Shown: positions 24,995 through 50,312 of the stretch, piece after piece | How positions within the stretch are numbered: the stretch's first letter is position 1 | Layout: every line of letters begins with the position of its first letter | Notes under the pieces: model-generated | What the model saw: only the letters and a program-made list of their open reading frames with translations | Told to the model about the DNA's origin: nothing | Database searches by the model: none | From: Kondoa malvinella | Lineage: Eukaryota; Basidiomycota; Agaricostilbomycetes; Agaricostilbales; Kondoaceae | DNA: 64,000 nucleotides | NCBI GenBank assembly: GCA_039545315.1 | Contig: BCIM01000012.1 | Location: 353,396-417,395 of the forward strand | Direction of reading: 5' to 3' | Position numbers and translations under genes: made by a program

Positions 24995-26373
24995 ATGAAG
25001 TTCTCGATATTCTCCCTTAGTGTAGCAGCTCTAGCTTGCGTCTTCACAGGTTGGTCTCTTGTCCATTATCGAATACAATGTCGAGACAGAATTCAAGAGC
25101 TGATTCCATGTCTAAAGCCAATGCGGCTGATGTCAAAGGACCTGTCATCACCAACAAGTACGTAGACACCTCTCTCTTCCCATAGTCAAAGCTTATAGAG
25201 CGCGCAAAGGGTCTACTTTGATATCAAATCCGGTGAACAAGATCTGGTGCGTTTGTCGCAGTTGTCATGCTAGGTCCCTGCTTAATTCGCTTTTTATGCT
25301 TAGGGTCGCATTGTGATGGGTGAGCATCTCCATTCCCTTCTGTCCGTGCAGTACTGATGACGAGGCAGGTCTATACGGCAAGGTCAGCTATCGCGTGTTC
25401 CCAAACAGCATCAGCTGATATCTCCTCTACCACTTGCTTAGACTGTACCCAAGGTATGTAGCATCTCCTTTACTGTTGTGCTAAGCTGACTCGATCCGTA
25501 CAGACGGCAGAGAACTTTCGTAAACTCGCGCTTGGATCTGAAGGTTTCGGTTATGAGGGTTCTGCTTTCCAGTGAGTCTTTGATACATAGTCAGAAAGAT
25601 GATTTTGATGTGCTTTGGTAGCCGTGTGATCAAGGATTTCAGTGCGTTAGGCATTGTCGCCATTGAGTTTTCGCTCATTATGATGGCTGTCGTCGCGCAG
25701 TGATCCAGGTATGCGGCCTGTGCATCTGTTGACTATCTGCTGACATTGTTCATCTCCCTAGGGTGGTGGTCAGTCGTTCTCTGCTCACTCTTCAAGCCAT
25801 GCCTGACACTGCTCGCCAGACTTCACCAGAGGTGACGGAACAGGCGGAAAGTCAATCTACGGCGCCAAGTTCCCAGATGAGAACTTCAAGCTCAAGCATG
25901 AGGGTCCTGGTACATTGTCTAGTCAGTCTCTATCTGCCTCGATAGGAACTTGCATTGATGCGTCGGTGGGCAGTGGCCAACTCTGGCAAAGACACTAACG
26001 GCTCGCAATTCTTCATTTGCACTGTCAAGACTAGCTGGTTGGATGGTATGTCTCTCCACCTTCTTTCTTTGCTGTCAGCTGATGCATGTAACAGGTCGTC
26101 ACGTCGGTATGTCTGTAACTCGCTTCCTAAACGCGACGCTGATGGGTTGCAGTCTTCGGACGTGTCATCGAAGGCATGGACGTCGTCAAAGCTATCGAAG
26201 CCGTCCCTAAAGGACCAGGCGACAAGCCCAAGGAACGCGTCGTCATTTCCAAATCTGGTGAACTCGACATGCCCGAGGAACAGTGCGTCTACTTCTTCCT
26301 TGTCTACGTGTATTGATCCTGGTATAGGACCGACGAAGAGGGCAAGCCTGTCCCATACAGAGGAGAGCTCTGA
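24995..26373 (+). CDS. ER cyclophilin (cyclophilin B type), stop in readthrough context
   Basis: A secretory-pathway peptidyl-prolyl cis-trans isomerase. The ATG at 24995 gives a signal peptide ([18 protein letters not shown]). The domain contains [55 protein letters not shown] and TSWLDGRHVVFGRV; the catalytic Arg, Phe, Gln, Trp and His of active cyclophilins are all present. The C-terminus KPVPYRGEL, whose last residues only loosely resemble HDEL-type ER retrieval signals, precedes TGA at 26371-26373. Splicing is extreme: more than a dozen exons, including ones of 7 bases (GGTGGTG), 8 bases (TGATCCAG) and three of 12-16 bases. After the stop the frame continues with a transmembrane helix (next entry). 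Confidence 0.92.
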
Positions 26374-26478
26374 CTATTTGCACTCGCGATATTTGTCGTT
26401 GCTGGAGTTTTGGCTTGGCAATGGCATATCAAGCGAGCACAATACAAGGTGGTCAATGCGTACGATTTGAGTGCTTGA
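26374..26478 (+). other. in-frame extension after TGA-CTA: membrane anchor
   Basis: Directly after the cyclophilin TGA the same frame reads 34 codons to a second TGA at 26476-26478. Residues 1-17 are a transmembrane-like helix ([17 protein letters not shown]), followed by a basic cytosol-type tail (HIKRAQYK) and VVNAYDLSA. The stop is followed by CTA, giving UGA CUA, the best known context for programmed readthrough in animals and fungi. Seen directly: frame, context and hydrophobic segment. Inferred: a minor, membrane-anchored cyclophilin isoform. Confidence 0.6.
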
Positions 26479-26591: not shown

Positions 26592-27825
26592 CTACAGCAG
26601 CTTTTATAAGCGAGACGATCGTATCATTGACTGGCGTAGGTATTCCGTGCTGCCGGCCAAGTTGACAGATATAGCCCTATGAAAAGTCAATGAGACGTTA
26701 AGCTAATACAGCGCACCAGACTCACGTTGATAAAGTCACTGCGACAGATTATCAGCTTCAGCCTGCTCGTGTGAACGCGAAGCTCACATTTCTGTCGTTC
26801 TCTCAGCAAGGATATCACCGCACATGCTGGATATGTTTTCTCCCATCGGTATCAGATTCCTAAGCATCTCTTCCGATAGCGCCTCAGCTGACATCTCTTC
26901 CCCTTCCATCACATTAGGTAATTCTGCAGCAAAGACCCTGGTAGCTTCATATATAATCGACCGAGCTAATGACTTTGTGTCTTCCGATCTCAACAGCATT
27001 TCATTGCGCACCCGAAGTAAGGCAGTCAACGGGTTGACAGTCGCGTTCATGAGCAGCTTTTTTATTCTTGTTCGCTGAAATTCAGGCCAAGGTATACAGC
27101 AGATGTTGAGTTCTGCCAGTGAGTTGAGTATTTGCGATACGGCCTGAAAGTCGTCTTTTTCTAGTTCTGGTGGTATTGAGTAAAGAACTTGACCTTTTGC
27201 TGCCCAGATTGCATGCAGATTCGGCTTGGGGGCTTTAATATACTTGATAGCTTCATCAGAAAAGGGCAAGAGAATGATGTGTGCACATACTACGCCTTGC
27301 ATGATTGAAGTAGGTATCAGCCGTGGTGTGCATCCATTTGTAAAGACTTCCGATCGGAGTTTGTCTTCGAGACCCATGCCATTCCTGTGAGCGAGGTCAG
27401 AGAAGAAGATATAGGAGAGATGAGGCCATACTGCAGCAGAAGAAGGATGGAAGCTTGAGAAAACCGAGGCGCAAGCTGCTTGAGGAGCGAAACTGATGCT
27501 TGGGCTTTGCAGCAGACAAGCAAAAGATCTATCGCTTCAGGACTGGAGAGTGACTCCTCGCGGAAGTTCGAATGGATGGTAGACGAGCCGTTGCTGTCCA
27601 ACGTGATGGACGACAGAAGTGTATCGTTCCGCGTCAACAGAATTGGGTCATAGTTGGCTAGCCGTAAATGATGAGCGAACAGAGAGCCGATGCTAGTGAT
27701 GTGTGAAGAAGGGCTTCGTGCATAGAAGGACAGCTCACGAGCCCACTTGAACAGACAGAAGTCAAACCCAAAATCGTCCACGGCAAAGCAAGGCGCTTAC
27801 CGCCCAGGATTCGTATGGATAACAT
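26592..27825 (-). CDS. PAN5: ketopantoate (2-dehydropantoate 2-) reductase
   Basis: NADPH-dependent reduction of ketopantoate to pantoate, for pantothenate and coenzyme A synthesis. The ATG at 27825 starts MLSIRIL. The Rossmann motif LGVGSIGSLFAHHLR appears only if a 7-base exon (TGGGCTC) is included between two introns. It is followed by LRLANYDPILLTRND and LLLVCCKAQAS. The C-terminal domain has VNPLTALLRVRNEMLL, preceded by a KKLLMNAT segment with the family's Lys and Asn, and after two introns DFINGYICQLGRQHGIPTP; the TAG is at 26592-26594. Fungal genomes carry several PanE-like paralogues, so the exact substrate is not certain. It is convergent with the cyclophilin gene; about 110 bases lie between the readthrough stop and this stop. 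Confidence 0.87.
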
Positions 27826-29525: not shown

Positions 29526-30840
29526 GAGCGAAGTTGTCGCAGTTTTGGTCCATTCTCGCGCATGTTGAATAAGCTGATCGGCTGTATAGGTGTACTGGCA
29601 GTTTGTCAGATCGACATTAAGGTTGAATCCTTGCAGTACTGGCCAGGTACGGCGATCAAAGACCCAGTTGAGCTTGCGTAGATTGAGAGCCAAATCGTTG
29701 GAATCCGCCAGTTCCTCCTCTGAATAATTACCGTCCCCGTCATCTACCCTGCCTCCGAGCACCCAAATGACAGACGACAGACAATCTTTCACACGACTGG
29801 AAGGTCACACGATCCCTTGTTTGAATTTGCGTAGAGTCAACATGGCGTACTTGAAATTGAAGAGACTGGATGTTCGGAAAGATTTGTTGGAGAACGTGCA
29901 AGTCTCTCGAGAGTTTGACTTCATATACATCCATATACAGATTGACGATTGTTCTGGCAGAAGTGATTTGATTGCCGGTAGGAGCGAGGTCAGGAATGCT
30001 GCCGATTTTAATTCGCGCCGTAGTGATAGTCGAAATCGCTTCAATGGCCGAATACAGCTGACAGAGATCAGAAGAGGTCGTCTGATTGTACGAGCAGTCG
30101 AGGCTCAGCGAAGACAGACTGGGTGTAAAATGGGGTTCGCCAATACGCCGATTCAAGAGGGGTGTAAGTAGCGGCATCGGTTTGAAAATACCTTGCAGAT
30201 TGAGGGCTTGCAAATTGGTTGCCATCGAGATCAGGGAACCAAAGCAGTCGAAGTCGAAGAATTCGGCGTCCTCGATACTGGTGATGGATAAATCTTTAAG
30301 GCTTTTGCTTAGAGGAAGGGCTGCGAGTTCTGCTGAAGCTGCGAGTACTAGAGGCCTGCTAGGAAAGTAGTCCATACTGTTGTCGAATTTGATGTCGAGT
30401 TTTTCCAATTCTGGGCATAGTTGCAGCATACTGGGAAACAAGCGAGAGCCTCCTTCCAGACTTTCCGACCACGCCACAAAAACACTCGCATCAATATCCA
30501 ATGTCAGGTCCCTGACTAAAAGTCCGTTGTCAGAACTGCCCAAGACGTCGCACAAGTCTGACGGCTCTGCAAAGTCGAACATGTGGATAGTACTGTAGAG
30601 AATTGGGCGAGCCAAAGAAGCGAATTGAATCGACACTCGACAAAGACTGGCCAGCGTAGCGCTATCATCCCTGCTCTTTGATGGATCGAAGTAGGAAAAG
30701 CATTCGAGCCAGATTTCCACAGGCATTTGCTTTGTGTTCCAGCCGCCCCGTTGCTTCTTGATAGGATGTTGTAGCCGAGGTAAATCGGGATCACGAGAGG
30801 TTGCGACAGCTTCTTTGCGAAGGCAAGACTTGCATGTCAT
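29469..30840 (-). CDS. F-box protein with leucine-rich segment (copy 2)
   Basis: The ATG at 30840 (MTCKSCLRKEAVATS) starts a long exon to about 29762. The F-box lies near residues 35-85 (MPVEIWLECFSYFD, then LCRVSIQFASLARPILYSTI). Leucine-rich strands follow (LRDLTLDIDASVF-like, CPELEKLDIKF, LKDLSITSI, LQALNLQGIF, LSSLSLDCSY). An intron of about 43 bases (GTGCTC...TTCAG) joins the exon to EEELADSNDLALNLRKLNW, stop 29469-29471. It is probably an SCF substrate adaptor. Its sequence differs from copy 1, which it overlaps tail-to-tail by about 57 bases, so these two are not recent duplicates. Confidence 0.72.
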
Positions 30841-45287: not shown

Positions 45288-46469
45288 CTACGCGATGCAG
45301 GTGCTAGAGGAGGTCTCCACGGTCTATGCCAGGATCAGCCTCATCAGATAGCTCAGCGAACAGACTTACCCGTACCCCACACCGTAAGCAAACTCGATCC
45401 CTCGCTCAGCGGTATAAGCTGCCAAAGCCTGCCTAGCCTCCTCATCTACGTTCTGTTCGTAGTCCAGAATGTACGCCATGAGCTTCTCCAATTTCACCGG
45501 TCTTTTCCTCTCTTTCATCCATGCCAATAGATCCGCACACAGACTAGCTTGTAAAGCAGTGATGCAGGTCAGTTCCAATTCCTTGACTTGGGAAAGTTGT
45601 TCCAGCTTGAGAAGATCCGAATTGAAAGTCGCTCCACTCAAAGAGAGGGATTTCAGAACGCCAGCTTTACAGTTGGAAACGATTCGCTGACCGACTAGAG
45701 AGTCTTCTCTTCCTCTAGAGTTGTGCCAAGCTATATCCATCTTCAACTCGGTAATAGTAGATCCAGTACGAGCCAGAGCTTGATAGACAGCTTCATCCGA
45801 AGGTGCATTCGCGACCATGAGCGCCAAGTCGACAGTTTGTAATATTTCCATCTTTCCGAAGAGATGGATGAAATGGGCGTCTAGGATCTCGCATGTCCCC
45901 AGAACCAGATTGGATAGGTAAGGCATCTCTAGTGGTTCCATGTCGACAGCGTCTTCGGACGTAAGCGTTTCGTAGATCCCGCTCAAGGCCAGACTTTGTA
46001 GCCGAGGTGCCCAGACAGCTAGAGCAGGTAAGATTCGTTTGATAGGTATTCGAGCTGGCATTGTTGATAGAGAAAAGGTAGTGATCAAGGGTAAGGAGAT
46101 CAAAGAATCGAAGAATTGACAATCAATGGCATTGATGCTGTCCATCCAGCAGATCCGAAGGGAGCGCAGAGTCTTGCAGTGAATGATAAGAGGTAGTAAA
46201 ATGCTGTCAAGAGGGTCGCTTGGTGTTGTTGCTCTGAAAATAAAGTCCGGGCCGAGTTCGATGGATTTGACTTGAGATCTAAGAGAAGGATGCTGATCTA
46301 GCGTATCAACTAGAGCAGGACCAGTGATATCGCTGATGGTGGCTTTCTTGTAAAGAACTGGCGTGGATGCGGCCTGGAAAGACCGACTGACGACTTGTGC
46401 GGATAAGAGATCTGGGTCGTCCAGGAAAGAACAGATGGCTTCTGCTATTTCAATGCTGAGCTTGTCCAT
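45288..46469 (-). CDS. F-box protein with leucine-rich segment (copy 3)
   Basis: The ATG at 46469 (MDKLSIEIAEAICSFLDDPD) begins directly with the F-box (LLSAQVVSRSFQAASTPVLY). Leucine-rich strands follow (CKTLRSLRICWMDS, WAPRLQSLALSGIYE, MPYLSNLVLGTCEI, VLKSLSLSGATF, VKELELTCITAL). The long frame ends GVGYG then TAA at 45366-45368, but this stop lies inside a donor (GG|GTAAGT). An acceptor at 45304 would add a last exon 45288-45303 giving YG-TCIA. Copy 4 has exactly the same arrangement and similar length and strand order, so the two are paralogues. It is probably an SCF substrate adaptor. Confidence 0.78.
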
Positions 46470-46622
46470 GATGATTTGAGCGATATAGGGTAAGACAAGA
46501 ACAGCAATAAGCGTCAAGACCGGTAGTCATTTTAAGCGCGACAAAGGGAATTGGAAGACCTCTTCAGCCACGTAAGTAAGCATCCCTCGGCTCTGATAGC
46601 TTCGAAATAGATAAGTGACATA

Positions 46623-48757: not shown

Positions 48758-49940
48758 TCAAGGGACCACCGCCTCGCTCGCAGGTGTTCTAGCAGAAGGA
48801 ACCCAAGGTCTACCCAGTCCGCTCATTAGGCGGGACAAGGAATCAAAGATGTTTCACTCACCCATAAGCAGCCGAATCCGCAAAGGCGATGTTTGTCTTG
48901 CCCGTCAACCTCTTTAGAGCTTGCACGTCTGCCTTGTTGGTGTCCTCCTCATACCCAACAAAGCAAGTAGTAAGCGTTTCGAGTCTGCAGAGGCGATTAT
49001 CCTTCGCGAGCCATCGTACAATATCGCCATGATCAATCGCGGAGATCCAGCTCAGGTCTAGTTGCTTGACTTGACGCATCTGTGGTAGCTTGAACAGAGC
49101 AGGTCGAAAGATCTGGCCATGAAGCTCGAGAGATTCTAGGCGACCAACAGTGCATTGCGACACAAGATCCAACCCAAGCTGGAATTCACCGCCTTCTTGT
49201 CCCACCCAAGCTTGCTCTACGTGTAAGCTACGAAGTTTGCTCAAACGGTTCTTGAATGTTTCGTGGACGATATATTCCGAAGGGGCGTTAGTTTCCATCA
49301 AACCCAATTTGAGATCCCGAAGAGCTTTAGTCTGCCCAAACATTCGGAGGAACACATGATTGAATATGAAGCAATCTTTAATTTCGAGAGACTTTAGCTT
49401 GGGTAGATGGATCGCAGTTTGGGAGGCGGTGTCAAGGTCTTGGTCGGGCTGACAGAAGCCTTGTAGCTTGAGCATTTCCAGCTGTGGTGCCCAACGACCT
49501 ACAGCTGGTTTGAGGGAGCCGACGGAAGCTATTCCAGATGATACTCGTAGAGTGAAAGAAGTAATATGCGGTAGGTTTGACAAGCGGTCGAAGAAGGCGG
49601 ACTCTTTGTCCGCCAGGTTGCCCGAGTAATGGATATCTAAAGAGCGTAGACGAGGGCAATGATCCAATAGAGGGAAAAGCTGGGCCCTCAAGACTTGCTT
49701 GTTGATTGCTTTGCATCCTGCGAATAAAAGAGATCTGACCAAAGGACGAATGGCCGTATGAATCTCCAAAGTATTGATCAGAGATGACGCTTGCGTCTCG
49801 TTGCCGGCAGACCCGTGCTCGTAGAGGAGGCTTGTCGAGGCAGCGGCGAAAGTCTTACAAGTTAATTGTACGGCAGGCAGAGTAGACGCAGGCAGACAGG
49901 CAAAGATGTCGATGAGTACTTCGACACTGAGAGTATCCAT
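48758..49940 (-). CDS. F-box protein with leucine-rich segment (copy 4)
   Basis: The ATG at 49940 (MDTLSVEVLIDIFACLPAST) opens with the F-box (VQLTCKTFAAASTSLLYEH). Leucine-rich strands follow (CPRLRSLDIHYSG, WAPQLEMLKLQGF, LPKLKSLEIKDC, LRDLKLGLMETNAPSE, RLESLELHGQIF, VKQLDLSWISAI). The long exon ends AAYG then TGA at 48858-48860, with the stop inside the donor GG|GTGAGT. An acceptor before 48788 adds an exon 48758-48788 reading YG-TPASEAVVP. Shared motifs with copy 3 (WAPxL, ANAPSDE versus TNAPSEY, the YG end and last-intron position) show common origin. SCF adaptor by family. Confidence 0.8.
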
Positions 49941-50312
49941 CTCTGTAGCTTGATGGCTGGAAGCGAAGGGCGGTCTAAGAGGTCACCTTCGCGAAGCTTG
50001 ATAGGAACAAAGGGATAGCAATTCCATTTGGGACAATTCTGGGTAAAAGGATAGCAGCTGTATGCTTGGCTGCTTGCCCAGGACAGGCTTCCTGTGACCC
50101 AGCAGGTTTCTCTCTTGAGCTTCGAGATGCCATGGAAAGCGAATTCAAGTCAACCACGAGCAGGCGCAACGGACGAGTACGATCTGTGCATAGGCGAGAC
50201 AAAAGCACAGCGAAGGCGTAACAGTATACTAGGCCCTCTTGTATAGTAGCAACTTGAGAGTCGTGGTGAGTGGACGAGCAAAACGCAAAACAATAGTGAC
50301 AGGTACATTGGA
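49941..50312. other. intergenic between F-box copy 4 and APP1 gene
   Basis: About 370 bases with the promoter of F-box copy 4 and the 3' flank of the phosphatase gene. A minus-strand frame (49975-50316) is without recognisable features. Confidence 0.35.

Follow-up and report, generated by a model that had tools for sequence, protein, structure and literature searches.

A UGA-CUA stop codon followed by a predicted in-frame membrane anchor in a cyclophilin B-type gene of Kondoa malvinella: a candidate for translational readthrough

Results

The coding region of a cyclophilin B-type peptidyl-prolyl isomerase gene of Kondoa malvinella terminates at a UGA codon that is followed directly by CUA and by an open, in-frame extension beginning with a putative membrane anchor. 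Judged by its context, this stop codon is likely to be leaky. Programmed low-level readthrough, generating a minor and putatively membrane-anchored form of the isomerase, is the reading that we tentatively prefer, at somewhat less than an even chance; functional readthrough is only narrowly favoured over a tail produced by chance, the choice between function and chance being close to even. The gene lies within a window of 64,000 nucleotides (contig BCIM01000012.1, positions 353,396 to 417,395), to which unprefixed positions refer, and its features are collected in Table 1.

Table 1. Features of the cyclophilin gene and of the sequence following its first stop codon
Feature	Position	Strand	Basis or remark
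Cyclophilin-B-type peptidyl-prolyl isomerase gene, ATG to first stop	24995..26373	+	15 exons; hand-made spliced model
Exon 1, start of likely cleavable signal peptide (last signal residues from exon 2)	24995..25049	+	sequence reading
Last intron, GTGCGT...TATAG, 45 nt	26283..26327	+	spliced model
Coding part of last exon, up to RGEL	26328..26370	+	spliced model
Stop TGA (26371-26373) then CTA, short readthrough context	26371..26376	+	sequence; context tested in U. maydis (PMC4207609, available part)
In-frame extension, 34 codons, without in-frame ATG	26374..26475	+	codon list
Predicted membrane-spanning segment, first 19 tail codons	26374..26430	+	Kyte-Doolittle mean 1.94
Basic flank HIKRAQYK and short end VVNAYDLSA, cytosol-facing by predicted topology	26425..26475	+	sequence, charge count
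Second stop TGA	26476..26478	+	codon list

The gene model was drawn by hand from the sequence, without transcript data, and contains 14 introns of 45 to 68 nt, all with GT-AG boundaries. Its spliced product, read to the first stop, is 212 residues long with YRGEL as the C terminus, and the N-terminal 21 residues resemble, by eye, a typical signal peptide. A Pfam match to PF00160 covers residues 36 to 189 of this product (E, 8.4e-51) and, among 161 matching solved sequences, the top one was a cyclophilin B (E, 2.4e-79), in agreement with the cyclophilin B-type identity proposed in the first-pass annotation. At least nine further cyclophilin loci are present elsewhere in the genome (19.09 Mb in 20 contigs). 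The convergent neighbour at 26784-27536 (-) matches PF08546 (1e-15), the C-terminal domain of ketopantoate reductase, and only about 305 bases separate the end of this reading frame from the second cyclophilin stop. Three F-box-like reading frames, all on the minus strand, occupy 29743-30837, 45369-46523 and 48861-49979; two of these also have leucine-rich-repeat matches, all of the matches being below the Pfam cut-offs. The density of short introns, together with a match to a fungal Zn2-Cys6 domain that was likewise below its cut-off, points to a fungal and probably basidiomycete genome.

The first-pass annotation had described a TGA-CTA stop, a 34-codon open frame, a hydrophobic anchor, an HIKRAQYK flank and a second stop, and every one of these elements was found in place. 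The tail, scored with the Kyte-Doolittle scale and the biological hydrophobicity scale, opens with 17 uncharged residues and has a best 19-residue Kyte-Doolittle mean of 1.94. The side of the helix predicted to be lumenal is acidic and the side predicted to be cytosolic is basic, a pattern that fits the positive-inside rule. As a likely signal peptide and a lumenal isomerase domain precede the acidic stretch and the helix, and a basic flank follows, a type I membrane protein is predicted for the extended product. Folding of the RNA from 26371 to 26478 (+) gave -33.9 kcal/mol (z, -2.09), and 5 of 200 shuffled sequences were equally stable. The annotation had also called UGA CUA a supported readthrough context, and this claim holds for the TGACTA at this site: in Ustilago maydis reporters, a UGA with CU(A) after it was enough for readthrough (Stiebler 2014, PMC4207609), and UGA-CUA alone gave 1.5% readthrough in human-cell work (PMC4132726). 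The base immediately after CUA is U (CUAU) at this site; many reported cases have G there, and this difference was counted against readthrough.

Searches for relatives of the tail were negative within their scope. No match besides the tail itself was obtained in the Kondoa genome at E values of up to 10, in a search limited by its first-pass sensitivity. A tail-peptide pattern matched 594 stretches in GTDB genomes and 34 stretches in viral contigs, none of which was a relative, neither collection being meant to hold fungi. Nothing was detected when the window was scanned for Rfam families and tRNAs.

Routes to the tail that avoid reading through the TGA were enumerated. Ten donors from position 26153 onwards, starting in the last large exon, were combined with acceptors up to the second stop, giving 50 donor-acceptor combinations with introns of at least 35 nt; five GT dinucleotides inside the last intron were left out. 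None of the 50 enumerated introns bypassed the TGA while keeping the hydrophobic stretch. The first AG past the TGA sits within the stretch, at 26407, and so no AG acceptor can join the stretch whole. By eye, use of another acceptor, 33 nt inside the last exon, would preserve the frame and still run into the TGA. A separate reading frame started by its own ATG was ruled out, there being no in-frame ATG in the tail. With no such ATG and no enumerated splice that skips the TGA and leaves the stretch intact, the routes left are readthrough, which is the straightforward one, and editing of the stop.

The frequency of such tails was assessed with all 4936 stop codons present in all frames on both strands of the window, the cyclophilin site included. 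A 19-mer as hydrophobic as that of the cyclophilin tail occurred within 22 codons of 11 of these stops. A helix-like stretch was defined as a 19-mer that begins no more than 8 codons after the stop and has a mean of at least 1.6; 50 stops qualified, 23 of which also had a net charge of +2 or more after the stretch. Hydrophobic in-frame tails therefore lie behind 0.2 to 1% of window stops. The context TGACT was found at 165 stops and TGACTA at 31, and 2 of these 31, the cyclophilin stop included, were followed by a hydrophobic stretch. TGACT and a helix-like 19-mer coincided at four stops: the cyclophilin stop, 54049 (+), 46529 (-) and 704 (-). Only the cyclophilin stop among these had a net charge of +2 or more after the stretch; 46529 (-) also reads TGACTA, but an F-box-like reading frame starts in the sequence that follows. 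In sequences generated by a first-order Markov model, an equally hydrophobic tail followed 8 of 22705 stops with the composition of the window and 88 of 29522 stops with the composition of the cyclophilin 3' flank.

Per-genome expectations were derived for an assumed 7000 genes, on the premise that the features occur independently. On this basis, TGACTA with a hydrophobic tail and a basic flank would arise at about 3e-5 per stop, or about 0.2 per genome, before the signal peptide is taken into account, and the looser combination of TGACT and a 19-mer (3 others among 4935 stops) would arise about 4 times per genome. The pattern GAR-CTN-TGA-CTA was found at 14 sites genome-wide, compared with 38 for a reversed control pattern, and these sites mostly lacked an established gene end; 5 of the 14 were open for at least 19 codons, and a hydrophobic stretch followed the cyclophilin site only. 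The combination of stop and tail is thus unusual, yet not beyond chance for a reader scanning many genes. The earlier argument that a random 3' flank would seldom encode an anchor of this kind stands for a single gene, given the 0.2 to 1% of stops above, and is weaker when the whole genome is considered. As the feature was chosen post hoc by a reader of many genes, its rarity encourages more work without proving function.

Codon usage of the tail was compared with two training sets. Against highly expressed genes (34 Pfam-matched pieces, 2770 codons), the synonymous codons of the tail appeared non-coding-like: only 3 of 149 coding pieces scored equal to or lower than the tail, and all 36 overlapping cyclophilin windows scored above it. 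The 13 scored codons of the cyclophilin's own last exon scored even below the tail in this comparison. Against ordinary reading frames (10 of the 19 window reading frames of at least 230 aa, 3541 codons; 7 of them matching Pfam at an E of 0.01 or lower, the other 3 not), the tail was within the coding range, with 159 of the 194 pieces scoring no higher (P of background, 0.061), such frames barely differing from background. Because the two training sets disagree, codon usage was dropped as evidence; codon choice provides no support for the tail as coding sequence.

The end of the short form was compared with ER retrieval signals. The canonical retrieval motif is K/R/H-D/E-E-L, which is frequent in ER cyclophilins and not required. 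RGEL departs from this canonical end, and three other ER-type proteins of the genome, two of the thioredoxin family and one of the HSP70 family, end in RDEL, KDEL and RDEL. As RGEL differs from the RDEL and KDEL ends of these ER-type proteins, retention of the short form may be weak and anchoring could be of consequence. Elsewhere in the genome, a KDEL-TGA-CTA sequence (SAKDEL, then LVIV and a stop) on the minus strand at about 1501-1512 of locus L078 (G000:C6:1019728-1019739) is a candidate leaky end of an ER-type gene, with an extension of 4 residues only.

A TGA-CT stop was absent from all seven other gene ends inspected (GAPDH, TPI, RPE, two PDI-like, one BiP-like and, by eye, PGK). The stops and following bases were TAA-GGC for TPI, TGA-ATG for RPE, TAA-ATC for GAPDH and, by eye, TAG-ACG for PGK. 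These four enzymes have reported readthrough isoforms in fungi, and the lack of TGA-CT at any of them in this genome was counted against readthrough. The GAPDH gene (L019 1720-1970; G000:C2 ~1201296-1201546) reads, by eye, AHMAKA, an intron and then a tiny last exon, DKNAKL-TAA; the PTS1-like AKL end depends on splicing and recalls the cryptic peroxisomal GAPDH of other fungi. The triosephosphate isomerase gene ends in KSNKL-TAA (L029 ~1880-1903), a possible weak PTS1 that is encoded directly, without readthrough.

Discussion

The cyclophilin stop lies in a leaky context, its open in-frame extension carries a predicted targeting feature, and neither an enumerated splice nor an internal ATG provides another route to that extension. 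Among the points counted in favour of readthrough were the exact TGA-CTA in frame with the predicted anchor, the published activity of this context, the rarity of the joint features, the positive-inside charge pattern, the departure of RGEL from the RDEL and KDEL ends, the slightly better RNA folding relative to shuffled sequences and the predicted helices gained by readthrough in Arabidopsis. If readthrough does occur at this site, the signal peptide would take the chain into the ER and most ribosomes would terminate at the UGA, presumably freeing the lumenal 212-residue form ending in RGEL. In perhaps a few percent of passes, as published tests in U. maydis and in human cells suggest, a near-cognate tRNA would decode the UGA ahead of CUA. 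The 17 uncharged residues would then be expected to halt translocation, yielding a type I membrane protein with a lumenal isomerase and a cytosolic HIKRAQYK flank. This anchored minority may hold isomerase activity at the membrane or translocon, the RGEL form being less firmly retained.

The principal competing explanation is that the TGA is an ordinary stop, perhaps slightly leaky, and that the 3' flank encodes a hydrophobic tail by chance, any long form being noise or degraded; we consider this a serious possibility, only slightly less likely than the preferred reading. It draws on the frequency of hydrophobic in-frame tails after window stops, on the several TGACT sites with such a tail expected per genome of the assumed size, on codon choice, which leaves the tail unmarked as coding, and on the presence of a plausible C terminus, RGEL, ahead of the extension. 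Against chance stands the full set of features, comprising TGACTA, an immediate anchor, a basic flank, an early second stop and a likely secretory host, which has the low expectation of about 0.2 per genome even before the signal peptide is considered. An improbable alternative is that the ancestor was a single-chain anchored cyclophilin that acquired a nonsense mutation in this lineage, the tail being a remnant, or relatives still having one chain. The tail continues the frame cleanly, like a former coding part, and a putative transmembrane domain is described for yeast Cpr4, which belongs to a different cyclophilin group of fungi (PMC1618848). The stop falls, however, directly after an ER-retrieval-like xxEL end, fitting an original stop, and the Cpr4 group is separate, containing only Saccharomycotina among the sixteen fungi of that survey (PMC1618848).

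Production of the long form by alternative splicing or RNA editing, rather than by readthrough, appears very unlikely. As regards splicing, none of the enumerated introns skips the TGA with the hydrophobic stretch intact. In favour of such a route, other cryptic isoforms in fungi reportedly arise by alternative splicing, and the PTS1-like AKL of the GAPDH gene of K. malvinella is supplied by a tiny last exon.

Readthrough-made dual localisation is already known, as are predicted readthrough membrane anchors in plants and flies. A literature search covering titles and abstract openings in one library found no report of a readthrough cyclophilin. The metabolic enzymes of U. maydis and humans described by Stiebler 2014 share with the Kondoa gene a UGA-CU(A) context and a short in-frame extension that would relocate part of the enzyme pool; in that report the extension carries a peroxisomal PTS1 and was experimentally tested, whereas the cyclophilin tail would be a putative membrane anchor on an ER enzyme (PMC4207609). 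In having a predicted anchor that readthrough would add, the Kondoa gene resembles extensions in Arabidopsis and Drosophila. These studies list 8 of 144 Arabidopsis readthrough products with a predicted gained transmembrane helix, the helices recurring in two or more further species (PMC9293766), and eight Drosophila extensions with predicted transmembrane domains, 6 of which had negative PhyloCSF (PMC3840789). The last figure indicates that membrane-type readthrough tails can arise without constraint. These cases differ from the Kondoa gene in being non-fungal and derived from ribosome profiling, and the genes are apparently different, the eight fly genes being listed by alias and the eight Arabidopsis genes left unnamed in the parts of the reports available (PMC9293766, PMC3840789).

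Fungal cyclophilin B orthologues (Group G of Pemberton 2006, PMC1618848) have in common with the Kondoa protein a cyclophilin domain, and they carry an N-terminal signal peptide, a feature that the Kondoa sequence resembles by eye; the available portion of that survey mentions neither a membrane anchor nor readthrough for them, whereas the Kondoa cyclophilin has a predicted anchor past its stop. Saccharomyces cerevisiae Cpr4 (Group H) is described there as a cyclophilin of the secretory pathway, and its transmembrane domain is putative, like the anchor in Kondoa. The anchor of Cpr4 is predicted within one continuous chain, as far as that portion goes, while in the Kondoa gene a TGA splits the domain from the tail (PMC1618848).

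Returning to the readthrough interpretation, we propose, more speculatively and with rather low confidence, that UGA-CUA might act as a fixed-ratio switch providing soluble and anchored ER prolyl isomerase from one mRNA, with the RGEL form directed towards secretion and the anchored minority at the translocon. Should RGEL act only weakly in retrieval, the short form would escape from the ER, and isomerase would be kept there by a small anchored pool. The fungal readthrough cases compared here add peroxisomal signals. If the readthrough interpretation is true, dual targeting by leaky stops would extend to the secretory pathway, with readthrough serving as a membrane-anchoring device, and the cyclophilin gene of K. 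malvinella would offer an easily testable single-gene case with one stop codon, one predicted helix and one folding enzyme.
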